Below, in pieces: positions 10,709 to 34,985 of a stretch of DNA of 64,000 nucleotides (the stretch's first letter is position 1; the number at the start of each line of letters is the position of its first letter). The notes beneath the pieces were generated by a model that was not told where the DNA came from, did not search any database, and saw nothing but the letters and a program-made list of their open reading frames with translations. Source of the DNA: Oscillospiraceae bacterium (GTDB lineage Bacteria; Bacillota; Clostridia; UBA1212; UBA1255); contig SVJB01000001.1 in NCBI GenBank assembly GCA_015069185.1, forward strand, positions 1 to 64,000, read 5' to 3'. The translations under genes were made by a program, and so were the position numbers.

Positions 10709-13180
10709 TTACACACCTTTCTTTTCTGTACGGATACGCTCGTTGTTTGTAAAGTTAACATTAGGAGTATTTACGAAACCTTTGAGCGGGAGAATCTTTT
10801 CGTTGATTGCATCCAGGAACCATGAAGGCTGCGGGAAGAAGTCAGCGTCAAATTCATAAGCAGGAGTGATCCAGTTCTTAGCGCCGATAACAACCGGTGG
10901 AGCATCTAAGTAGTCAAATGCCATCTCGCTGATATTCTGAGCGATGTTGTTGAGGTAAGAACCTCTCTGACAAGCGTCAGAAGCAAGAACGATACGACCT
11001 GTCTTCTTAACTGACTCTAAAACTTTCTCATAGTTAAATGGAACAAGTGAACGAGCGTCGATAACTTCAGCGCTGATACCATACTGTTCTTCTAACATCT
11101 TAGCAGCTTTAAGAGCATTGTAAAGTGTATAACCAACTGTAAGGATTGTAATATCTGAACCAACCTTCTTAACATCTGGCTCGCCGAAAGGAATCTCGTA
11201 GCTCTCTACAGGAACGCCACCTTCGTGGAACTGCTCACCAAAGTCATAAAGTCTCTGGCTCTCAAAGAATACAACAGGGTCAGTTCCGTTAAGAGCTGTT
11301 GTCATAAGACCCTTAGCATCGTAAGGTGTAGCAGGGAAGCATACCTTAAGTCCCGGAATATGAGCACAAAGTGATGTCCAGTCTTGTGAGTGCTGAGCAC
11401 CGTACTTAGAACCAACTGAAACACGGAGAACGAGAGGCATCTTAAGAACGCCTGCACTCATAGCCTGCCATTTAGCCATCTGGTTGAAGATTTCGTCGCC
11501 TGCACATCCGAGGAAGTCACAGTACATGAGCTCTACGATAGCACGACCACCACTCATACAGTAACCAACTCCTGTACCAACAATAGCAGCCTCAGAAATA
11601 GGTGAGTTGAAGAGTCTGTGATAAGGAATAGCTTCTGTAAGTCCTCTGTAAACAGCGAAAGCGCCGCCCCAGTCTCTGTTCTCTTCGCCATATGCTACTA
11701 ATGTAGGATCTTCATAGAATTTATCAAGGATTGGTTCAAAAATAGCGTCTCTGTATTGGAATACCTTGTTCTTTGATACAGGCTTACCATTTTTATCAAA
11801 GCCGAATCTTTCTTTCTTAGAGATCTGGATAACTCTTGGGTTCTCAGCCTTAGGCATGAGTACATCAGGCTCAGCATCAAGAAGCTTAGGTGCGTGACCT
11901 TCTGAGAACATAAGATCTTCTAACTGACGAGGATTCTTGATGAAGTCCATTCTAGGTGATTTTTCTGTATCAACAGCCCAACCGCAGATCTTAGTGATGA
12001 GCTCTACGCAAGCTTTGTCGATAGCATCGAATTCAGCTGAAGAAGCAACATTAGCAAGAATAAGGTTTGTCTTAAACTCATTAACTGAATTGCCTTCAAA
12101 CCACATATCGATTTCTTCTTTTGTTCTGTAAGAAGAAGCATCTGAAGGTGAGTGGCCTGTTGTTCTGTAAGTAAGAGTATCGAGAAGAACAGGACCCTTT
12201 TTCTCGAGAAGGAGCTGCTTCTTTCTACGAACTGCATCGATAACAGCAAGAGGATTGTAACCGTCAACTCTCTCAGCATACATTTGCTCAGGGTTAACAC
12301 CAGCACCGATACGAGCAACGAATTCATAACCCATTGTCTCACCGTTTGTCTGACCACCCATAGCATACTGGTTGTTATAAACGTTGAAAAGAATCGGGAG
12401 ACCGCCGTTCATGTCGCCTTCCCAAAGTTTCTTATACTGGTCCATAGCTGCAAATGAAAGAGCTTCCCAAACAGGACCACGGCCCATAGAACCGTCACCG
12501 ATGTTAGCAACAACGATACCAGGCTTTCTGTTTACTTTCTTAAAGAGGGCACTACCTGTAGCAACTGTAGCACTACCACCAACGATAGCGTTGTTAGGAT
12601 AGATACCGAAAGGACAGAAGAATGCGTGCATTGATCCGCCGAGACCCTTGTGGAAACCTGTCTCACGAGCAAAGATTTCAGCAAGTGTACCATAGATAAG
12701 GAAGTCAATTGCAAGTTCCTTAACAGTAGCTTGGTCTCCTTGAACAATCTTAAGGATAGCGCCATCAAAGTAGCCTTCCATGATGTCCATTAATTCTTTA
12801 TCGCTAAGCTTTTCAATTGCTGATAAACCTTTAGCGAGGATCTCACCGTGGGATCTGTGTGAACCAAAGATCCAGTCGTTAGTATCAAGTACATAAGCCT
12901 GACCTACAGCTGAAGCTTCCTGACCGATTGATAAGTGAGCCGGTCCCGGATGGCTGTACTGAATTCCGTTATATTCACTTGTTGTTTTAATGCTGTTTAA
13001 CATAAGCTCGAATTCTCTTATGATAAACATATCTCTGTAAATACGTAAGAAGTCTTCTTTTGAATAGTTAGCTTTTTCTTCTTCGATTGTTTTATTGTAC
13101 TGGTTTAATGGAGTATCCTGGTACTTAATCCAACCTGATTTTCTGACTTCTTTCTGGTCAATAAATTGTGACTTTGGCAT
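10709..13180 (-). CDS. Fused E1 alpha-beta subunit of a pyruvate/2-oxoacid dehydrogenase complex
   Basis: Thiamine-diphosphate decarboxylase component that passes an acyl group to lipoyl-E2. Residues about 60-400 are the alpha part, with the ThDP/Mg motif [14 protein letters not shown] ... YNNQYAMGG and the phosphorylation-loop-like TTGHSPSD. Residues about 470-823 are the beta part ([58 protein letters not shown]). Most homologues encode the two parts separately, so this is a one-piece E1 of 823 aa. With E2 and E3 upstream, the substrate is probably pyruvate because pta-ackA diverge next door; acetoin or another 2-oxoacid is possible. Confidence 0.9.
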
Positions 13181-13208
13181 AAATCTTTACCTCTTTCTTT
13201 ATATTTTA

Positions 13209-14576
13209 TTAGTGAAATTCAAAAATACCTTCACGGATTACTTCGCATACAGATGGGTGAGGGAATACGAGTTGCTTAATATCATTAATAGGCATCTCTG
13301 TTTCAATCATCATACCTGCACCGTATATAATCTCAGATGAATAGTTACCGATCATGTGAACACCGATAACATTTCTGTATTTCTTATTGATAAGCACTTT
13401 AATAATGCCGTCTCCGCCTTCGTTTTCAGCAACGTATCTGCCGGAGTACATCATAGAAAGTTTAACTACTTCGTAGTCGATACCCTTATTCTTAGCAGTT
13501 TCTTCTGTCTCACCAACACCTGCAACTTCAGGATTTGTATAAATAACAGAAGGAATAGCGTTGTAACGCATCGTATCTTTGATACCAAGGATATCATTGA
13601 TAGCAACTTCTGTTTCTCTGTATGCTGTATGAGCAAGCATTGAATATCCGTTAACGTCACCTGTTGCATATACGCCTGCGATGTTTGTACGGCCCTTGTT
13701 ATCTGTCTTAATCTTGCCGCGCTCTGTCTCTACGCCGATAGTCTCTAAGCCAAGGCCTTCTGTGAAAGCTCTACGGCCGATACTAAGAAGTACTTTATCT
13801 GCGGCAACTTCAAATGTCTTGCCATCTGCTTCGTAAATAACTTTGCCGGGCTGAACACCTGTAACTTTACATCCAAGATTGAATGTAACGCCTTTTTTCT
13901 GGTAGTTCTTAAGAAGAATTTCAGAAATCTCAGCGTCTGTAGGACCTGCAATCTTATTCATCATTTCGATAACAGTTACCTTAGAACCTGCAGTGTTGAA
14001 GTAAGACGCCATCTCAAGGCCGATAACACCGCCGCCGATAACAGCCAGATTTGCCGGAACTTCTTCTAAGTCAAGGATCTCACGGTTAGTAAGAACAAAG
14101 CCTGACTCTAAGCCTTCCTTAACACCCGGGATCGGAGGAGTTACCGGTACAGAACCTGTAGCGATAAGAAGTTTAGCACCTGTATATTCAGTATCTCCGG
14201 CCTTAACTGTAAAGCCTTCAGCTGTTCTGCCTGTAATAGTAGCAACTTCCATAACTGTTGTCACTTTAAGTTTCTTAAGCTTAGACTTAATACCACCAAC
14301 GAGAGTTGATACAACTTTGTTCTTGCGGCCAACTACGAATTTGTGGTCAAGTTTAAGACCTTCAGCGCTAACACCGTATTTCTCACCGTGAGCAGCTCCG
14401 TCAAAAATCTTTGCAGAGTAGAGGAGAGCTTTTGAAGGAATACAACCTTCGTTTAAGCAAACACCACCGATAAATCTTTTTTCGATAAGTAATGTGTTAA
14501 GACCTGCTTCGCCTGCGCGCTCTGCTGCTAAGTATCCGGCAGGACCACCACCGATTACGATTAAATCATATACCAT
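13209..14576 (-). CDS. lpdA: Dihydrolipoyl dehydrogenase (E3)
   Basis: FAD disulfide oxidoreductase that reoxidises dihydrolipoyl-E2 with NAD+. It shows the FAD Rossmann motif VIGGGPAGYLAAERAG, the redox disulfide GGVCLNEGCIPSKALL (Cys about 41 and 46), a second NAD-binding GGGVIGLEMAS, the FAD-binding YATGDVNG and the C-terminal HPSVCEVIRE active-site His-Glu. 455 aa, with no N-terminal lipoyl domain. It sits between the E2 and E1 genes with gaps of 14 and 28 bp. Confidence 0.96.
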   Translation of the reverse strand: MVYDLIVIGGGPAGYLAAERAGEAGLNTLLIEKRFIGGVCLNEGCIPSKALLYSAKIFDGAAHGEKYGVSAEGLKLDHKFVVGRKNKVVSTLVGGIKSKLKKLKVTTVMEVATITGRTAEGFTVKAGDTEYTGAKLLIATGSVPVTPPIPGVKEGLESGFVLTNREILDLEEVPANLAVIGGGVIGLEMASYFNTAGSKVTVIEMMNKIAGPTDAEISEILLKNYQKKGVTFNLGCKVTGVQPGKVIYEADGKTFEVAADKVLLSIGRRAFTEGLGLETIGVETERGKIKTDNKGRTNIAGVYATGDVNGYSMLAHTAYRETEVAINDILGIKDTMRYNAIPSVIYTNPEVAGVGETEETAKNKGIDYEVVKLSMMYSGRYVAENEGGDGIIKVLINKKYRNVIGVHMIGNYSSEIIYGAGMMIETEMPINDIKQLVFPHPSVCEVIREGIFEFH

Positions 14577-14590
14577 AATTAAAACACTCC

Positions 14591-15928
14591 TTATTTAATA
14601 AGCATCATGTTGAAGTTTTCCAGGTTCTTGCAAAGTTCTTGTAAGAATCTTGCTGCAGGTGCACCGTCTAATGCTCTGTGGTCAAATGTAAGAGAAAGAG
14701 TCATAGCCTGGTACATTTTCATTTCACCGTTAACATTCTTAACACGTGTCTGCAGTGTATTAACACCGATGATACATGTTTGTGGAGGATTGATAACAGG
14801 GGTGAATGATTCAATACCCAGTGTACCTAAGTTAGTGATTGTGATTGTGCCACCCTTGAGAAGATCAGGATTGATTGTACCTTCCTGAGCGCTTGTAGCA
14901 AGCTTCTTAGCTTCGATAGAGATTTCGTTAAGAGACTTTGTGTTAGCATCCATAAGTGTCGGAACCATAAGTCCTCTTGGAGTATCTACAGCGATACCGA
15001 GGTGAGCATTCTTAAAATATCTCATAACTGTACCATCTTCAATGAAATTAGCGTTACAATCTTTGTGATTGAGAACAACTCTTGATACAGCGTAGAGGAT
15101 AATATCGTTAATTGTAATGTTTGCAAGACCCATTGTCTCACGAACATCTTTAAGCTGCTTTCTGAAGTTTAAGATGTTTGTAGCATCGAAAGAAGCGTTG
15201 AGAGTGAGCTGAGCCATTGTTGACAGAGAAGCGTGCATTGATTTTGAAATAACCTTACGGATATTAGGAATCTTAACATCTTCATATTCAGGAGCCTGAG
15301 CTACAGGAGCTGCAACGCTTGCAGCAGCTACAGGAGAATCAAGATCTGCTGTAGAGATTCTGCCATTGAAGCCTGTTCCGTTCATATCGCTTGTAGCCAT
15401 AGCGCTGGCTGCGTATGTTGTATTAGCACCTGATGCAACAAAGTTCTTTACATCGCTTTCTATAATGCGTCCATAAGGGCCTGTGCCTGCTACGAATGCA
15501 GTATTAACACCTGTTCTCTGAGCGTAAGCTTTTGCTCTTGGTGATACAGGTGCACCTTCCTGAATATTTGCTGCAGGAGCACTAGCTACAGCTGCAGCTG
15601 CTACAGGAGCTTCTTCTTTTGCCGGAGCTGCTTCCTCTGCAGGAGCTTCTTCGCTACCTGTGTTGGGGTTGAATTCTTCAAAACTCTCTCCGGGATTACC
15701 TATAACACATACATTTAATAAACAAGGAACATCGTCGCCTTCTTCAAAGAAGATAGCAAGTACTGTTCCTTCTAATTTTGATTCTTCGTCAAATGTTGCT
15801 TTGTCTGTTTCGTAAGTAAAGAGCATGTCGCCGACTTTAACCTGATCGCCGACTTTAATATTCCATTTAGAAATAATACAGCTCTCGACAGACTGACCTT
15901 GTCTTGGCATAATTACTGGTGTTGCCAT
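14591..15928 (-). CDS. Dihydrolipoamide acyltransferase (E2)
   Basis: Core of the dehydrogenase complex. One lipoyl domain (about 1-78, lipoyl Lys in YETDKATFDEES), a Pro/Ala/Glu-rich swinging linker, a peripheral subunit-binding domain (about 128-162, VSPRAKAYAQRTGV...GPYGRIIESDV) and a catalytic acyltransferase domain ending with the active-site motif FDHRALDGAPAARF. 445 aa. First gene of the operon; GGAGG lies 8 bp before the ATG. Substrate identity depends on the E1, see that entry. Confidence 0.94.
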   Translation of the reverse strand: MATPVIMPRQGQSVESCIISKWNIKVGDQVKVGDMLFTYETDKATFDEESKLEGTVLAIFFEEGDDVPCLLNVCVIGNPGESFEEFNPNTGSEEAPAEEAAPAKEEAPVAAAAVASAPAANIQEGAPVSPRAKAYAQRTGVNTAFVAGTGPYGRIIESDVKNFVASGANTTYAASAMATSDMNGTGFNGRISTADLDSPVAAASVAAPVAQAPEYEDVKIPNIRKVISKSMHASLSTMAQLTLNASFDATNILNFRKQLKDVRETMGLANITINDIILYAVSRVVLNHKDCNANFIEDGTVMRYFKNAHLGIAVDTPRGLMVPTLMDANTKSLNEISIEAKKLATSAQEGTINPDLLKGGTITITNLGTLGIESFTPVINPPQTCIIGVNTLQTRVKNVNGEMKMYQAMTLSLTFDHRALDGAPAARFLQELCKNLENFNMMLIK

Positions 15929-15954
15929 TTAAAAACCTCCTAAGTAAATGATAC

Positions 15955-17267
<1,313 letters not shown>

Positions 17268-17286
17268 TTAAAGGAGGAAATATTAA

Positions 17287-18477
17287 ATGAATATACTCGT
17301 TATAAATTGCGGTAGCTCATCATTAAAATATCAGCTCATCGACTCAGAGACAGAGAATGTACTTGCAAAGGGTCTTTGTGAGAGAATCGGTATTAATGAT
17401 TCGTTTATTAAACAAACAGTTCCTGGTAAAGATGCAGTAGTAATTAACTGCGAGCTTAAAGATCACAACGATGCAATTGCTCAGGTTATCAGCGCACTTA
17501 CAGATAAAGAAATTGGTGTTATTGCTGATCTTAGCGGTATTAGCGCAGTAGGACACAGAGTTGTTCATGGTGGCGAGAAGTTCCATAAATCTGTAATCAT
17601 TGATGAGAATGTTATGATGGCAATTGATCAGTGCGTACCACTGGCACCGCTTCACAATCCTCCGAATATCATCGGTATCAAGGCTTGTCAGGCTGCTATG
17701 CAGGGCGTACCTCAAGTTGCAGTGTTTGATACTGCTTTCCATCAGACAATGCCTAAGGAATCATATATGTATGCCATTCCTTATGAGTATTACGAAAAAT
17801 ATGGTATTCGTAAGTATGGTTTCCATGGTACATCACATAAGTTTGTTGCAGAGCGTTGTGCACAGATCTTAGGTAAGCCAATCGAAGAGACAAAGATCAT
17901 TACTTGTCACATCGGTAACGGTGGCAGTATCAGTGCTGTTAAGAACGGTAAATGTATCGACACATCAATGGGCTTTACTCCATTAGACGGTATCGTAATG
18001 GGAACACGTTCAGGTATTCTTGATCCAGCTGTTGTTTTATTCCTTATGGAGAATGAAGGCTTGAACGAAAAAGAAATGAACAACGTTCTTAATAAGAAGT
18101 CAGGCCTCGCTGGTGTTTCTGGTGTAAGCAGTGATATGCGTGATGTATACGCAGCAGCTCAGGAAGGTAACGAGAAAGCACAGCTTGCTCTTGACATTTT
18201 TGCGCATAGAGTAAAGGCATATATCGGCGAGTATTTTGCTGAAATGAATGGCGCTGACGCAATTGTTTTCACAGCAGGTATCGGTGAGAATGATATGGCA
18301 GCAAGACTGGCTTCTGTATCCGGCCTTGAAGCTCTCGGTATAGTTATTGATCCTGAAAAGAATAATCGCCGTGGTGGTGAGTTTGAGATTTCTGCTGATA
18401 ACTCCAAAGTTAAGGTTTATGTTATCTCAACAAATGAAGAATTAGCCATCGCACGTGAGACAGCAGCTTTGGTGTGA
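17287..18477 (+). CDS. ackA: Acetate kinase
   Basis: Transfers phosphate from acetyl phosphate to ADP, the ATP-yielding last step to acetate. 396 aa with N-terminal [11 protein letters not shown], the VVHGGEKF motif, DTAFHQTMP, the GFHGTSHK active-site loop, CHIGNGGS and the FTAGIGEN nucleotide-binding motif. A strong AAAGGAGG precedes the ATG. Codon use is strongly biased, as expected for a highly expressed catabolic gene. Confidence 0.98.
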
Positions 18478-27786: not shown

Positions 27787-28594
27787 TATTTTCAAATATA
27801 ATAATCAAATCATCTGCTTTGGCGGCTTGGTAGCTCTCACTTGTTGTGATTGTCCAGGCCGCTCCTTGCGTTTTCCAGAATTTTGTACAGACTCTATAAG
27901 GAAAATCTTTACAATTTTCATATTTATATGCAAGGAAATCAGGACGCAACAATATATTAATAATAAGAGATGTAAGAATAAAATCAACTATCTTTGTGAA
28001 TCCTGATGTAGATTTAAGAAAATTCATTGCAAGAGAACCTCTGATTACTTCCTTATGATGGCGCCTGTACCACCATACACACCTAGGATCAAAAGACTCT
28101 ATGCAATATTTCACATTATAATTTTGCATAACTTCATACACTGCTTTGCTTAACGCTGCTCCGTTATTTTTATAAGCTTTCAGCTCGATGATAAGGGGAG
28201 CTTTATTTTCAAAAATTTCTAATACTTCTTGTAGTGTGGGGATATATTCGTTTGTTCCTTCAAGCCTGTATTTTTTCAGATCATCAAATGTCAGATCCTC
28301 CAACAGCCCGGATTGGCCTGTTGTTCTATCAAGCTTCCAATCATGCATTACAGCTAGTGTGCCGTCTTTAAGCAGGTGTACATCAAGCTCTGCACCATAT
28401 CCACCATCTACAGCCAGTTGAAAAGCTTTAAGGCTGTTTTCAGGTGCAAAAGGTTTTTCGTGCAGACCTCTGTGCGCATAATCCCATTTGAGAAATTCTC
28501 TCGTTTCCGGAGATGTACGTCGTCCTTTTACAGCGAAAATATAAAATATAAATAATACAATTAAAATACTACCAACGATAATCCAGGGTATCAT
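27776..28594 (-). CDS. Membrane-anchored glycerophosphodiester phosphodiesterase
   Basis: 272 aa: one N-terminal membrane helix (about 1-22), then a GDPD domain with the catalytic HRGLHEK...PENSLKAF and ELDVHLLKDGTLAVMHD (HxH-type catalytic and metal residues). Hydrolyses glycerophosphodiesters, such as deacylated lipids or teichoic-acid fragments, to glycerol-3-phosphate and an alcohol. It follows the MFS gene by 12 bp on the same strand, so the two may salvage a common substrate. Confidence 0.92.
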   Translation of the reverse strand: MIPWIIVGSILIVLFIFYIFAVKGRRTSPETREFLKWDYAHRGLHEKPFAPENSLKAFQLAVDGGYGAELDVHLLKDGTLAVMHDWKLDRTTGQSGLLEDLTFDDLKKYRLEGTNEYIPTLQEVLEIFENKAPLIIELKAYKNNGAALSKAVYEVMQNYNVKYCIESFDPRCVWWYRRHHKEVIRGSLAMNFLKSTSGFTKIVDFILTSLIINILLRPDFLAYKYENCKDFPYRVCTKFWKTQGAAWTITTSESYQAAKADDLIIIFENIKP

Positions 28595-28606
28595 ATTGTT
28601 AACTCC

Positions 28607-29902
28607 TTATTTTTCAGAATCTCCGTGCTTCACAAAGCACATTGTCAGGAATGATGCAGCTACAAATATTGCTGCATAAGGGAATAATGAGTTATATCCT
28701 ACTTTACTAAGTAGAGTTCCTGCAAGCACCGGTGTGATAGTCTGTGCTGCCATACTGAATGTATAGTAATATCCGGTAAACTTGCCTACATCAGCTCCTG
28801 CGCACATCTCAACAACCATAGGGAAACTGTTTACATTAATAGTTGCCCATGCAATACCGATTAATACAAATAATACGTAAAGTATCGGGTGAAAAGAATC
28901 GGAAAATATTGTGTAAATGTATGCTGCAAAGAAGCACACTGCCAATAGTCCGGCCCCAATAAGAATTGATATTTTACGGCCGATTTTACCGGCTAGCACA
29001 CCAACAGGAATGTAGCTTATAATGGCACCTGCCATAGCAATTGTGAGACACATGCTGGCATCTCCTAATGCCATATTCCATACATTAGTGGCATATGTTG
29101 TGAACCATGTATTTACTGCATTATAACCAATATACCACAGAGCAACAGAAAGAAGCAGGAATAATAGACTGAGCTTGACGGATTTTGGCATAACTTTCTT
29201 CTGGGTTGTGTTTTCTTCTACTGTTAACTCCTCTTCAGGATGTGCCTTTTCATATTCTGCTTGCTTTGCTCTTAACTTCGGCTCGTTTACAAAGAATAAT
29301 AAAATAGCTAATGATGCGAGCATAATTATTGCTACTACTATGAATATAGGCATGTAATTTACATGATCAAGACCAGCTGTCTTTTTTTTTGAAAACAACA
29401 CGGAAGATGCAAGTAGATAAACAATACCTCCTATTGCTCCCATAAGATTAATTATTGCGTTACCTTTACTACGAAGCGGTCTGGGCGTTACGTCCGGCAT
29501 CAATGCTACAGCCGGACTCCTGTATGTTCCCATTGCTATCAGAAGTAAACCCAGAATAATGATAAAACCTGCTGTCTTTAATGGTGACGGTGATGCATAA
29601 TAGCTATTATCCAGCAAGGGAAGCCCTGTCATAAACACAACTGCCGCAATAGTGCCAAACAGTATGAAAGGTTTTCTCTTTCCCATTCTGAAGTTGCTTT
29701 TATCTGAAAGAGTGCCAAATAACGGTAACAAGAACAATGCCAGAATATTATCGGCAGCCATTATAAGGCCTGAAATGGTTTTATTCATATTAAATGTATT
29801 AGTCAATATTAGTGGTACCATATTGTCATACATCTGCCAGAATGCTGTTATAGACAAGAAGGCAAAACCAATAAGTATCGTGTTTTTCTTGTTAAGTTTC
29901 AT
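28607..29902 (-). CDS. MFS transporter, SLC45/GPH-like
   Basis: 431 aa with twelve predicted membrane helices, the MFS loop motif GTLSDKSNFRMGKRKPFILFG after helix 2 (split by helix ends) and a second one, GVLAGKIGRKIS, in the second half. The D-K-RMGKRKP form resembles sugar-cation symporters such as SLC45/GPH members. AGGAGA precedes the ATG. Substrate unknown; a sugar or a glycerol-phosphate compound is plausible given the GDPD gene downstream. Confidence 0.85.
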   Translation of the reverse strand: MKLNKKNTILIGFAFLSITAFWQMYDNMVPLILTNTFNMNKTISGLIMAADNILALFLLPLFGTLSDKSNFRMGKRKPFILFGTIAAVVFMTGLPLLDNSYYASPSPLKTAGFIIILGLLLIAMGTYRSPAVALMPDVTPRPLRSKGNAIINLMGAIGGIVYLLASSVLFSKKKTAGLDHVNYMPIFIVVAIIMLASLAILLFFVNEPKLRAKQAEYEKAHPEEELTVEENTTQKKVMPKSVKLSLLFLLLSVALWYIGYNAVNTWFTTYATNVWNMALGDASMCLTIAMAGAIISYIPVGVLAGKIGRKISILIGAGLLAVCFFAAYIYTIFSDSFHPILYVLFVLIGIAWATINVNSFPMVVEMCAGADVGKFTGYYYTFSMAAQTITPVLAGTLLSKVGYNSLFPYAAIFVAASFLTMCFVKHGDSEK

Positions 29903-29931
29903 AACTATCTCCTGTGAAAAATTCGATTATC

Positions 29932-29961
29932 ATTATATAGGTTGCCAGGCTGTTTGTCCAA
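29932..29961 (-). promoter_or_regulatory. Promoter of the MFS-GDPD operon
   Basis: Minus strand TTGGAC (29956-29961), 18-bp spacer, TATAAT (29932-29937). Confidence 0.6.
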
Positions 29962-29983
29962 TGTAAAATCGGTATGTTTTTTG

Positions 29984-30012
29984 TTGATTTCACAGATGCA
30001 TTATGTTAATAT
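29984..30012 (+). promoter_or_regulatory. Promoter of the esterase gene
   Basis: TTGATT (29984-29989), 17-bp spacer, TGT-TAATAT (30007-30012, extended -10). Divergent from the MFS promoter. Confidence 0.55.
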
Positions 30013-30041
30013 TGCGCTACGTGATATAGGAGGCGGCTTAA

Positions 30042-31712
30042 ATGAAAAAGATTTTCACAATAGTTTTACTTATTGCAGTTATTTTAAGCTGTAGTAGTTG
30101 TACAGAAATTAAAACAATAAATATATTGAAGCAGGCTAAGAAACCAACAGAAGAGATTCAGGATATAAAGGTAGGAGATAAATTGGATATGGAGTATGCA
30201 ACTGATTTTACAGTATCAAATGTTTTTTCACATGATATGGTTGTACAAAGGGGCGAACACATAAGAGTATGGGGGACTGCACCGGAGTCTGAAAACGGAA
30301 AGAAAATATCAGGTGAATTTATGGGTTTGTTTGCAGAATGTGCCATAGAAAATGGTAGCTGGATATTAATATTTACTGCAAGATTAGAAGCGTCCTGTGA
30401 ATTAGGTCATTCTATGAGAATATATACAGATACGAAAACAGTTGTGTTTGAGGATGTTCTTGTAGGTGATGTGTATATGGTTATAGGTCAATCTAATGTA
30501 GCATATTCTGTTCAAAAACATTGGTCATATGTCAAGGATCCGGAAAGAGGCGGTACAAGAGATGTAAATAAGGAAATTCCTATTCGTTTGCACTATAACT
30601 CACTTGTGCATACTCAAGGATATCCTAAGAGGGGAACGGATGAAGTTTGTCCGATGCTTCTGAATAAAAGCTCATGGGAAAAAGTCACGCTTGCATCTGT
30701 GTCAAACTTTACAGCCCTTGGATATTTCTTTGCTTTAGAAATGGTTGAGCTTACAAATAGTTCTGTCCCGGTTGGCATTATAGAAATAGATGGTAATGGG
30801 CAGCCCCTTGGAGCTTTTATGTGCAACACTGTTGCAGAGCAGTGCCGGACTGATACATACGATGATATATCAGGTTATCATGTTACTACAGGGGTAAATG
30901 GCGATGCCGGCAGATATATGTATAATCATTACATATATCCTTTTGAAAAATATGCTATAGCGGGTATTGTATGGTATCAGGGAGAGAGTGATTTTGCTGT
31001 TGCAAACAGTAAAGTATACGCTAAAAATTTTAGCGAACTAATGACCTATATGCGTGGCACGCATAATTTAATTAATAAAGAATTTCCTGTATATATTATT
31101 GAATTTCCTGCAAATTTTGACAAACCGAAGAGCTTTGTGCCCACAAATGACGCACCTGTTTGGGCAAGTATGGATGTAGGACTTATAAGAGCAACAATGG
31201 GAAGTATCCCTCAGTATTTATCTAATTGTTATATTTCTGCTTCCAGTGATCTTTGGTATGACAATACTTTTTGGAATAATCTTCATCCGAATTGTAAATT
31301 TGAACAAGGAGTACGTGCTGCGAGAATTGCTGCAAGTCATCTCGGTATCATACCGATGGAAGAAGCCGCAGGCCCGATTTTAAAATCAGTAAAACGCTCT
31401 ATAAATGGAAAAAAGATTGTTCTTACATATGACAATGTTGGAGAGGGTCTTAAAACATATGAAGGCGTAGATTATGTAGATGGATTTGGTATAATTGACA
31501 GTTCATTTAATATAAAAGGGCCTGATACAATCAAGTTAGAAGCATGTATTACGTCAAAGAATCAGATTACGATAACATCATCTGTGAAAATAACAGGAAT
31601 TGTCTATAATTATATTAGATACAATTCATTTCTGGATGGGGCAAATCTTTGCAATTCAAATGGTATACCGGCTAGTGCAGTGCTATTTGTATATGTCAAC
31701 AATACAAGATAG
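30042..31712 (+). CDS. Sialate O-acetylesterase-like (SASA/SGNH) lipoprotein
   Basis: 556 aa with a lipoprotein signal (lipobox SSC about residue 20). The esterase domain has the nucleophile motif VIGQSNVAYS (Ser about 152), the conserved WYQGESDF and a late NLHPN His, as in the SASA (DUF303) carbohydrate-esterase family, which removes acetyl groups from sialic acids or plant polysaccharides. The last 5 codons (VNNTR) lie beyond a 31-bp repeat. A second copy of that repeat at 34791 reads in the same frame to LFVY followed by TGA, so the ancestral protein probably ended there. AGGAGGCGG precedes the ATG. Confidence 0.85.
   Translation: MKKIFTIVLLIAVILSCSSCTEIKTINILKQAKKPTEEIQDIKVGDKLDMEYATDFTVSNVFSHDMVVQRGEHIRVWGTAPESENGKKISGEFMGLFAECAIENGSWILIFTARLEASCELGHSMRIYTDTKTVVFEDVLVGDVYMVIGQSNVAYSVQKHWSYVKDPERGGTRDVNKEIPIRLHYNSLVHTQGYPKRGTDEVCPMLLNKSSWEKVTLASVSNFTALGYFFALEMVELTNSSVPVGIIEIDGNGQPLGAFMCNTVAEQCRTDTYDDISGYHVTTGVNGDAGRYMYNHYIYPFEKYAIAGIVWYQGESDFAVANSKVYAKNFSELMTYMRGTHNLINKEFPVYIIEFPANFDKPKSFVPTNDAPVWASMDVGLIRATMGSIPQYLSNCYISASSDLWYDNTFWNNLHPNCKFEQGVRAARIAASHLGIIPMEEAAGPILKSVKRSINGKKIVLTYDNVGEGLKTYEGVDYVDGFGIIDSSFNIKGPDTIKLEACITSKNQITITSSVKITGIVYNYIRYNSFLDGANLCNSNGIPASAVLFVYVNNTR
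31664..31694 (+). repeat. Left copy of a perfect 31-bp direct repeat
   Basis: Starts TATACCGGCTAG and ends TATTTGTATAT; identical over all 31 bp to 34791-34821. It lies inside the 3' end of the esterase gene. Confidence 0.95.
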
Positions 31713-32568
31713 TTTTATTATCAAACCTAAAACCGGGGAGGAGGATGATCGAGTGCTTGCGATTGGGCTTTTAAATTCTCAGTCAAATGGTGGACTTGTT
31801 CAACAAAGACAATATATAGATGACGATAATTTAAAAGATGAATGGATGATTGAAAGGGCAAACTCAATTGTTAAAGTTGATTTTAGCTATGATAATGAAT
31901 TTGTACAACGATATAGCCTGGCGTATGAGAGCGATCCATCAACAATGGAAAGATTCGAAAACAACCTTGAAGAAATATATTTTTATTATGTTAGAAATGC
32001 TTTTGCTCAAATTGGTATAAATATTACATTGAACAACATTTCGAATTACACATCGGATGCTGATTTATGTGAAAGCAATAATGCTCAAAATGTGTGTGTT
32101 TGTATTGATGCAAGTGATTGCTTAGTTGATTCACATGACGACCCAAGATACAATAATTCGTTTGTTGGATTCTCTAATCCAATTCATTGCAAAAGTTTGG
32201 TTAGGCTAAGAAATAATTTAATTGTGGATTTACCAACTGATACAATCAGAGTGACTTTTTCGGGTAGTGTTTTATGTAATTACTGTGAACATGATGACAC
32301 CTCACATAACTTATCCACCGCGGGATTATCGAACTTTGATTTTCCTATTATAGCAATGTGTCCGTTTAATGTTACAGATAAAACTATTACTCTTATTTTG
32401 GCGCATGAACTCTCACACACATATGGTGCGATTCATCATGCAACTTCCGACACTCCTTGTATTATGGATATAGACGGCATTCCACAGTCTATTGATTACA
32501 CTAATGTTGCAGAATATTGGTGCGACGATTGTATTGATATTATGTCATTAAATAAATACAGATATTAA
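31693..32568 (+). CDS. Metzincin metalloprotease, probably 5' truncated
   Basis: The frame is open from before the 31-bp repeat. The first ATG (31693) overlaps the repeat and has no ribosome site; GTG 31753 has GGGGAGGAGG 8 bp upstream and is a possible alternative. The core is a complete metzincin zinc site, HELSHTYGAIHH (HExxHxxGxxH, about residue 238 of the ATG form), with a likely Met-turn in CIMD. Several Cys residues suggest an exported protein, yet no signal peptide remains, so the N-terminus was probably lost at the left junction. Whether it is expressed is uncertain. Confidence 0.6.
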   Translation: MSTIQDSFIIKPKTGEEDDRVLAIGLLNSQSNGGLVQQRQYIDDDNLKDEWMIERANSIVKVDFSYDNEFVQRYSLAYESDPSTMERFENNLEEIYFYYVRNAFAQIGINITLNNISNYTSDADLCESNNAQNVCVCIDASDCLVDSHDDPRYNNSFVGFSNPIHCKSLVRLRNNLIVDLPTDTIRVTFSGSVLCNYCEHDDTSHNLSTAGLSNFDFPIIAMCPFNVTDKTITLILAHELSHTYGAIHHATSDTPCIMDIDGIPQSIDYTNVAEYWCDDCIDIMSLNKYRY

Positions 32569-32586
32569 AGTGAAAGGGGATTACAT

Positions 32587-33219
32587 ATGAGAAGATCATT
32601 CTGTATATTGATTTTATTACTTGCTCTATGCTTGGTCTCTTGCACAGATCCGATAGATTCCGGATCCGTTAATACGGAATCTGATTCTCTTGCAATTGAT
32701 ACAATGAGGTTGTTTGGTACATTAGATGATTTGATTTTATATTGTGAAAACGATAATGAACATTCTATTTACTATTATCCTTTTGTAGAAAGTATTGCTA
32801 AGAGCGAATATGTGGATTTTGAAGGATATAATGTTTTACCTGCTTATGTGGAATATAACAGTTTTTATCCGACATATGATGATTATGTTAACTTTTATAT
32901 CAGATATAAGTGTAAAACCGAAAAAAACGAGGGCACTGAGCCACCGGTATTAGAACTTAGATTTGAAAAGGGCGTATTGGAATACGTAAAGGATATTCCT
33001 CAAAGGTGTAAATTCGATGAAAATTTACAAGTATACTTTGCAGATGTAGATGGTAAAGGCAAAGCATATATTTATATATTTAACGATGATACCTATGGAG
33101 CTGTTACTATACCTGATATCTATTCAATAGAAGAAAAAGAAGCAATTGGAAAACAATTTTCAGATTTATGTAAAGATGTTTATACGAAAGCTTTTGCTGC
33201 TCAAGAGAAAGGAGCATAA
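32587..33219 (+). CDS. Small lipoprotein of unknown function
   Basis: 210 aa with a lipoprotein signal (lipobox VSC about residue 19), an acidic Ser-rich spacer and a mature domain rich in Tyr, Asp and Glu. No family recognised. AAAGGGG precedes the ATG 18 bp after the protease stop. It is immediately followed by the damaged lipoprotein gene, so the three probably formed one operon in their source genome. Confidence 0.7.
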   Translation: MRRSFCILILLLALCLVSCTDPIDSGSVNTESDSLAIDTMRLFGTLDDLILYCENDNEHSIYYYPFVESIAKSEYVDFEGYNVLPAYVEYNSFYPTYDDYVNFYIRYKCKTEKNEGTEPPVLELRFEKGVLEYVKDIPQRCKFDENLQVYFADVDGKGKAYIYIFNDDTYGAVTIPDIYSIEEKEAIGKQFSDLCKDVYTKAFAAQEKGA

Positions 33220-33220
33220 C

Positions 33221-33799
33221 ATGAAAAGATTTATAACTTTTGTAATGATTATATCTATTGTTTTCTGCTTCGCTGGTTGTAATCCTGAAGAAAAGCTTCA
33301 TGGTACTTGGATATATGAAACAGATGATGAATCAGCGTTATATTCATATATATCATATGAATTTAATGACAATGGCAATCTTGTAAGGTACTGCGAAAAA
33401 AACAATTCGTCCGAAGGTAATGTGTGGGTAAGGACATTGTTTGAATATGTTATTGAGGACTCCAAAATAATTCTCACAAAAAATGATCAACTTATAGAGG
33501 AAAAATCATTTTCGCTTAAAAGAGATGTTCTCACAATAGATGGAAAGGAATTTGTTAAGAACCCCAAAAACAAAAAAGATACTATTAAATATGAAAATGC
33601 AATGTTAATAGAAGTTGGAATGACTTATGAGGAGGTTGAACAGATTATCGGACAACCTAAAAGAGATGTTGGCGCCAACAATTTTCTTTTTGAATGAGAT
33701 GTAGATAACGGAAAGATTCTTCGTGTATGTTTTGAAAGAACAAGTGGACAGAAAGAAGTAGATACAAAGTCAGCGGCATATCGAGTTAGTCTTGAATAA
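33221..33799 (+). pseudogene. BamE/SmpA-like lipoprotein gene with in-frame TGA
   Basis: Start ATG 33221 with a lipoprotein signal (lipobox FAGC, about residue 19) and AAAGGAG upstream. The second half has a BamE/SmpA-like repeat: LIEVGMTYEEVEQIIGQP, then NNFLFE. TGA at 33695-33697 interrupts just where the family usually has Trp (FEWDxDNGK); the same frame continues DVDNGKILRVCFERTSG to TAA 33799. This fits a single TGG to TGA mutation. The truncated 159-aa product could still be made. Confidence 0.65.
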
Positions 33800-33870
33800 A
33801 TAATCTAACACAGGAATGTTTAAAATGATAACCAATAGATTGTTCAAAAAAAGCAACGATTGTGTCTCTA

Positions 33871-33918
33871 TGTTTCACATATAACAACAAATTGATAATC
33901 GATATAGTTTGTGAAACA
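33871..33918. repeat. Inverted repeat TGTTTCACA / TGTGAAACA
   Basis: Perfect 9-bp arms at 33871-33879 and 33910-33918, with a 30-bp spacer. No T run follows; function unknown. Confidence 0.5.
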
Positions 33919-33942
33919 CAACGGAAGAAATGTTAAATAACC

Positions 33943-33985
33943 ATAGAACTAATGAGGAACAAAACCCGTTAGTTCTATTTTTATT
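33943..33985 (+). terminator. Intrinsic terminator after the damaged lipoprotein gene
   Basis: Perfect 10-bp stem ATAGAACTAA (33943-33952) with TTAGTTCTAT (33969-33978), then a T-rich tail. Confidence 0.85.
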
Positions 33986-34138
33986 ATGCTGATTAATTTA
34001 ATACATACTTATTTAAAATATCCTATAAATGGAGCAATTGCTTTTTATCTCAAACAAAAGTCTCCCTTGTTTTATAAAATTTCTGTCATACTTATTGAGA
34101 AGGGCGTTGAGGAAAATGAGATTACACTGAAAAAGTAA
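33986..34138 (+). other. Short open frame, doubtful
   Basis: A 50-codon ATG frame directly after a terminator T run, without a ribosome site. The composition is protein-like (SVILIEKGVEENEITLKK at the end) but no family is recognised. It is perhaps another gene fragment in the insertion. The rest of 33800-34350 holds no recognisable gene. Confidence 0.2.
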
Positions 34139-34180
34139 TTACTGAATTTTCACCGAGGATAGTTCTTCACCCCAAAACAC

Positions 34181-34310
34181 GAATAAAGTTCATTTTTTGA
34201 CGAAATGCAGAATTTCGGAATTTTGGTTTACTCGACAAATAATGTTCATTTTTCGACAAAATTCACAAAAATGCAGTTTTGGTTTACTCGGTGAATAAAG
34301 TTCATTTTTT
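34181..34310 (+). repeat. About 2.4 imperfect tandem copies of a ~55-bp unit
   Basis: Units begin near AATAAAGTTCATTTTTTGAC (34182), AATAATGTTCATTTTTCGAC and GAATAAAGTTCATTTTTTT (34293) and share GGTTTACTCG at their ends (34226-34234 region and 34281-34290). No coding potential. Confidence 0.65.
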
Positions 34311-34349
34311 TGATTTTTTTCAAAAAAATTTTTTTCAGTTTTATCGTCT

Positions 34350-34802
34350 CGTAATAATATAGAATATATCAAAACTACATCTGATTCAGAAAACATTTAT
34401 ATGATGATTAAGTGTACAGAAGATATTGTAACAGCCGATGATTCTGCGTGGATGAATATTTTTATAGGTCTCGGGGAAGAGCCTTCCATGAATAAAGGAT
34501 GGGAATCTTACGAATACGTAATTAACAGATCGCGCGATGCTGTAAGTGGCTCTGCAAAAATCGAAAGGCTCAACAGTGATTTTTCAGGACATGAATGCGG
34601 CTCTGCCAAGTACATAGTTTCCGGTTCCGTTATGCAAATTGAGTTTCCAAAGAGCAGTATTTCTCTTGAGACAAATGCTTCTTTCTACTTCAAGGTTGCT
34701 GACGGAGTTTTGCAGCCTGAGGAAATAATGAGCTATTATGAATCTGGAATGTCAATGCCTATCGGAAGATTAAGTTATTTGTACCAGACATATACCGGCT
34801 AG
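34350..34802 (+). pseudogene. C-terminal remnant of a CBM9-like protein
   Basis: The frame is open from 34314 to TAG 34802, with recognisable sequence from about 34350 (RNNIEYIKTTSDSENIYMM). The pattern DDSAWMNIFIG ... GWESYEYVINR ... PIGRLSYLY resembles the C-terminal carbohydrate-binding-family-9-like domain seen at the ends of glycosidases. There is no start with a ribosome site and no N-terminal catalytic domain, so this is a fragment. Its stop codon falls inside the right 31-bp repeat. Confidence 0.6.
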
Positions 34803-34821
34803 TGCAGTGCTATTTGTATAT
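34791..34821 (+). repeat. Right copy of the 31-bp direct repeat
   Basis: Identical to 31664-31694. In this copy the preceding A makes ATATAC at the left end and GTATAT at the right end an inverted pair. The final T is the first base of the tRNA-Pro -35 box. Confidence 0.95.
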
Positions 34822-34849
34822 TGACTTTAATACAGGTTTATGTTATCAT
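34821..34849 (+). promoter_or_regulatory. Promoter of tRNA-Pro
   Basis: TTGACT-like box at 34821-34826 region, 17-bp spacer, TGT-TATCAT (34844-34849, extended -10), just upstream of the tRNA. Confidence 0.6.
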
Positions 34850-34860
34850 ACGCCTGTTTT

Positions 34861-34934
34861 CGAGATGTGGCTCAGTTTGGTAGAGCGCTGCGTTCGGGAC
34901 GCAGAAGCCGCAGGTTCAAATCCTGTCATCTCGA
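34861..34934 (+). tRNA. tRNA-Pro (anticodon CGG)
   Basis: Acceptor CGAGATG / CATCTCG, D arm GGCTCAGTTTGGTAGAGC, anticodon arm CTGCG-TTCGGGA-CGCAG, T arm CAGGTTCAAATCCTG, discriminator A. CCA is not encoded; a T run follows at once and probably ends transcription. Confidence 0.95.
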
Positions 34935-34985
34935 TTTTTTTGTGCAAATTTATATAGCAAAATGCTTATTGTCTCAACCTTTTTC

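Follow-up and report, generated by a model that had tools for sequence, protein, structure and literature searches.

How did two identical copies of a 31-bp sequence come to bound a 3.1-kb segment beside a tRNA-Pro gene? The question is raised by a stretch of 64,000 nucleotides from an Oscillospiraceae bacterium (the window), in which a first-pass annotation had described the repeat, taken the segment between its copies to be a later insertion, and likened the ends of one copy to those of a recombination core site.

The direct repeat

The 31-mer TATACCGGCTAGTGCAGTGCTATTTGTATAT occurs on the forward strand at 31664-31694 and at 34791-34821, and the two copies are identical at 31/31 positions; from shuffled sequences, the number of chance matches expected for such a 31-mer is 0. 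A scan of 204 kb of the contig for exact direct repeats with copies up to 30 kb apart gave none longer; the runner-up has 26 bp, and no second comparable case was seen there. The whole assembly, a draft of 2.1 Mb in 54 contigs that is 85%-complete and probably a gut metagenome bin, was also searched with up to 3 mismatches allowed, and no third copy was found. For this reason a dispersed repeat, which the first-pass annotation had itself named among the findings that would refute its reading, is ruled out.

The same draft state, together with a repeat length of exactly 31 bases that is k-mer-like, could suggest a metagenome assembly error in which two real sequences were joined via a shared 31-mer. 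However, an error of this kind would presuppose, at each joint, two molecules that share the 31-mer; the assembly has no further copy, and the closest relatives of the GH99-like gene in the segment include paralogues from the same genome. We consider such an error quite unlikely.

The left copy lies at the 3' end of a sialate O-acetylesterase-like lipoprotein gene (SASA; 30042-31712, + strand). In the esterase frame both copies translate as PASAVLFVY, followed on the left by VNNTR and a stop and on the right by TGA. The first 20 bp of the 31-mer are esterase 3' coding sequence and encode the conserved end GIPASAV, which is GIPAGAF in the homologues, and the last 11 bp, TATTTGTATAT, are DNA from upstream of tRNA-Pro. 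In most of the homologues the protein stops after PAGAFLLNK, nine residues counted from the P of PAGA, which is also the length of PASAVLFVY-stop. The five codons VNNTR would stand where the insertion replaced the original stop.

Comparison with a congener

The two parts of the 31-mer were told apart by comparison with one congener (G001). There the gene order is ABC transporter, two small genes, TSCPD, about 60 bp, tRNA-Pro and smc. The window has this gene order on both sides as well; its interval between the TSCPD gene and tRNA-Pro is 7 kb longer and holds genes for a GDPD phosphodiesterase and for an MFS transporter, both on the minus strand, followed by the esterase gene and the 3.1-kb segment. 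At its tRNA-Pro site this single congener has neither the esterase nor the insert; its esterase relative, 64% identical, is found elsewhere, on contig C35. The DNA upstream of the tRNA is AACGCAAGT-TATTTGTATATTGACTTTAA in the congener and AGTGCAGTGC-TATTTGTATATTGACTTTAA at the right copy in the window. The two can be aligned from 34811 onwards, a position within the right copy; the preceding 20 bp are dissimilar. This alignment shows the 3'-most 11 bp of the repeat to be old tRNA-flank DNA.

The tRNA-Pro gene (CGG; 34860-34935, + strand) has an intact promoter, TTGACT-17-TATCAT (34821-34849, + strand), whose boxes and spacing are equal in the congener. The right copy stops at 34821, which is 38 bp before the 5' end of the tRNA, and its last T begins the -35 box, so that the esterase TGA read from the right copy falls within TTGACT.

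These observations make it a well-supported reading of the sequence that the 31-mer straddles an older junction of the esterase with tRNA-Pro. Within the 204 kb of contig, TATTTGTATAT is found only in the two repeat copies, and chance therefore does not explain why it follows the esterase on the left as well. Since both copies carry this older fusion, the esterase would have touched the tRNA promoter before the 3.1 kb came. It is likewise well supported that the original esterase, as reconstructed from the two frames, ended with PASAVLFVY-TGA, at the usual length of the family and at the tRNA promoter. The first-pass annotation had reported the identity of the two copies, the reading PASAVLFVY in both of them with TGA following the right one, and an original gene end at the tRNA promoter, and all of these agree with our analysis. 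The last was confirmed by the match of the right 11 bp to the tRNA-Pro upstream DNA of the congener and of the left 20 bp to the esterase.

It can also be observed that the whole 7-kb block at 27787-34810 (GDPD, MFS transporter, esterase and insert) is absent at the counterpart site of the congener. Either the region upstream of tRNA-Pro has taken in DNA at least two times, or the first block was lost from the congener.

The inserted segment

The segment between the copies (31695-34790) has 3096 bp and a GC content of 0.327, compared with 0.367 for the contig. At its left end is a 5'-truncated gene for a metzincin-type metallopeptidase (HELSHTYGAIHH; 31695-32568, + strand). Longer proteins of the order, from families other than this one, resemble it from within the first few codons past the repeat, and two homologous proteins of 740-950 aa extend upstream of the metallopeptidase start with lectin-like repeats, with ricin-type domains in one of them. 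No homologue of the metallopeptidase was found in the rest of the family. A small lipoprotein ORF without a protein family match (32587-33219, + strand) follows, and then a putative lipoprotein pseudogene (33221-33799, + strand). The latter has a lone in-frame TGA at 33695-33697 (FLFE-stop-DVDNGK), which may mark a pseudogene or may be a sequencing or assembly variant.

The right end of the segment is taken by the 3'-terminal fragment of a GH99-like gene (34345-34790, + strand), consisting of the last 148 codons. The label rests on the Pfam match of one paralogue, which is below the curated cut-off. Homologues of this gene end with GRLSYRYLG-stop and the fragment reads GRLSYLYQT right up to the repeat; since the homologues stop there, the segment ends at the expected position of the stop codon. 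The fragment has about 20 paralogous matches within the same genome. Around one such paralogue (contig 138.6-140.4 kb) there are exact direct repeats of 18-26 bp, 0.5-6.6 kb apart, at positions 10868-17500 of locus L053 (contig 134.9-141.5 kb), with the 26-bp pair at 135.7 and 141.3 kb.

Because the left end lies inside the metallopeptidase gene and the right end at the stop codon of the GH99-like gene, both ends of the insert appear to be arbitrary with respect to any element. They fall inside or at unrelated genes, and are not conserved element termini. Among the proteins of the insert, no recombinase, transposase or phage structural gene could be recognised with Pfam, PHROGs and PADLOC. The metallopeptidase has a marginal homing-endonuclease score (E 0.01), and the matches of the insert proteins to phage families are weak and concern families of unknown function. 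A defence island was rejected, as the PADLOC score is marginal. A phage or satellite origin was also rejected: phage records gave no match to the segment, and IMG/VR does not contain the core of the 31-mer. Two further statements of the first-pass annotation, that the genes of the segment are truncated or decaying with no recombinase among them, and that the segment came later between the esterase and tRNA-Pro, hold in the light of these results, the second by the composition of the repeat, by the absence of the segment from the site in the congener and by the lack of metallopeptidase homologues in the rest of the family.

The non-coding stretch at 34179-34310 contains three degenerate copies, 17-18 bp long, of the motif GAATAAAGTTCATTTTT at 56-bp spacing, with TTTACTCG in between. 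This block looks transposon-end-like, and no informative match to it was found among related genomes, plasmids and viral contigs. Together with the exact bounding of the insert by perfect repeats, the block could speak for a transposon, now decayed, whose target-site duplication was unusually long. But the block is internal and not at an end of the insert, no close copy of it was found, there is no transposase, and 31695 and 34790 have no terminal inverted repeats; the known DDE transposases also give far shorter duplications than 31 bp. Transposition is thus highly improbable.

Is the repeat a recombination site?

The copies could be attL and attR of an integrative-element remnant, whose tyrosine or serine recombinase acted in trans or has since been lost. 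Perfect direct repeats at both ends of a low-GC segment beside a tRNA gene are in favour of this, and islands that no longer have their integrase are a known outcome. Against it stand the gene-internal ends of the insert and the lack of a recognisable recombinase or mobility gene. Moreover, the repeat lies at the 5' side of the tRNA gene, and the 3' end of the gene, which the repeats of islands usually include, is not part of it.

The first-pass annotation had pointed to the ATATAC/GTATAT ends of the right copy as in a recombination core site. These ends do exist there, but only around the right copy, since the base preceding the left copy is G, so that the outermost base of the arms is missing there. 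As support for a core site they count for little: inverted arms that good occur in 0.4% of the 32-mers of the contig, and the pair is a composite, with Ile-Pro codons on one side and tRNA-flank DNA on the other. A Xer- or Int-like core site was therefore rejected, its arms being short and built from two unrelated sequences, and with no recognisable recombinase and with borders inside or at the end of genes the proposal of the annotation was not upheld.

A further argument comes from the 31-mer itself. It is a recent, lineage-specific chimeric junction, absent from the congener, and neither the full sequence nor its 26-bp core has a match in IMG/VR. Only by coincidence, then, would the attP of an independent element agree with it over 31 bp. 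Taking these points together with the weak inverted ends, we regard an integrative-element remnant as unlikely. More speculative still is an undescribed trans-acting recombinase that would use the junction of esterase and tRNA-Pro promoter as a 31-bp site and shuttle recombinase-free cargo of surface-protein genes into and out of it, which we hold to be very unlikely.

The identity of the copies could also be accounted for without any recombinase, if a circle that had the 31-mer beforehand became integrated in a RecA-dependent (Campbell-type) manner. The circle might, for instance, have been excised earlier at this locus in a sister strain, and one of the same lineage would bear the chimeric junction. 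This leaves the origin of the first 31-bp duplication unexplained, and it requires a non-replicating circle; a second source of the 31-mer was not found in the genome. We give it a low probability, as for the assembly error.

Proposed order of events

The locus is probably the outcome of two events in this lineage, namely the arrival of the GDPD-MFS-esterase block and then a one-off illegitimate capture of the 3.1 kb with duplication of a 31-bp target. The ancestral junction and the order of insertion are the well-supported parts of this scheme. In the first event, the block would have been placed between the TSCPD gene and tRNA-Pro, with the 3' end of the esterase fused to the tRNA upstream DNA, which gave the gene the end PASAVLFVY-TGA and put its stop codon within the -35 box. 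The empty site would then have had the order esterase-31 bp-TGACTTTAA; as the congener lacks the esterase at the site, we infer this intermediate state.

In the second event, an arbitrary 3.1-kb piece of clostridial DNA, with one end within a lectin-metallopeptidase gene and the other at the stop codon of the GH99-like gene fragment, would have been inserted at the junction by illegitimate recombination. The 31-bp target would thereby have been duplicated, with the tRNA promoter left intact and the esterase extended by five residues.

The joining may have occurred either by end-joining into a filled-in staggered break or by a replication template switch that re-copied the 31 bp. A duplication of 31 bp is long for end-joining. 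At the right joint, the expected stop codon points to a possible microhomology of at most TA. No Ku gene was found in the 85%-complete assembly, for which reason classical Ku-dependent end joining (NHEJ) is disfavoured and a slight preference goes to template switching or to alternative end joining.

Comparison with known systems

Because the 31-mer spans the older junction, the repeat itself dates the events: a single genome together with one congener is enough to tell which of the two rearrangements came first. As a caution, direct repeats beside a tRNA gene are not necessarily an attachment site. The consequence would be wider only if other strains carry different cargo between the same repeats.

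In transposon target-site duplication, a short stretch of the pre-insertion target comes to stand as a direct repeat at either side of the element. The locus is similar in that the pre-insertion target is repeated on both sides of the segment, and it differs by a length far above the usual one and by a segment that has neither terminal inverted repeats nor a transposase. tRNA-associated genomic islands have attL/attR direct repeats of tens of bp and accessory cargo of low GC. The segment shares with them the direct repeats beside a tRNA gene and the low-GC accessory cargo; unlike them, it has no integrase, its repeat is on the promoter side, is lineage-specific and contains no tRNA sequence, and its ends lie inside genes.

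Double illegitimate recombination, or fragment capture in DNA uptake or repair, is described for Acinetobacter baylyi (Hulter and Wackernagel 2008, as cited in PMC8116780). Our case differs in the 31-bp target that is duplicated at the borders, and it is known from sequence. It agrees with that process in that an arbitrary foreign or ectopic fragment with non-homologous ends was apparently captured with no recombinase.
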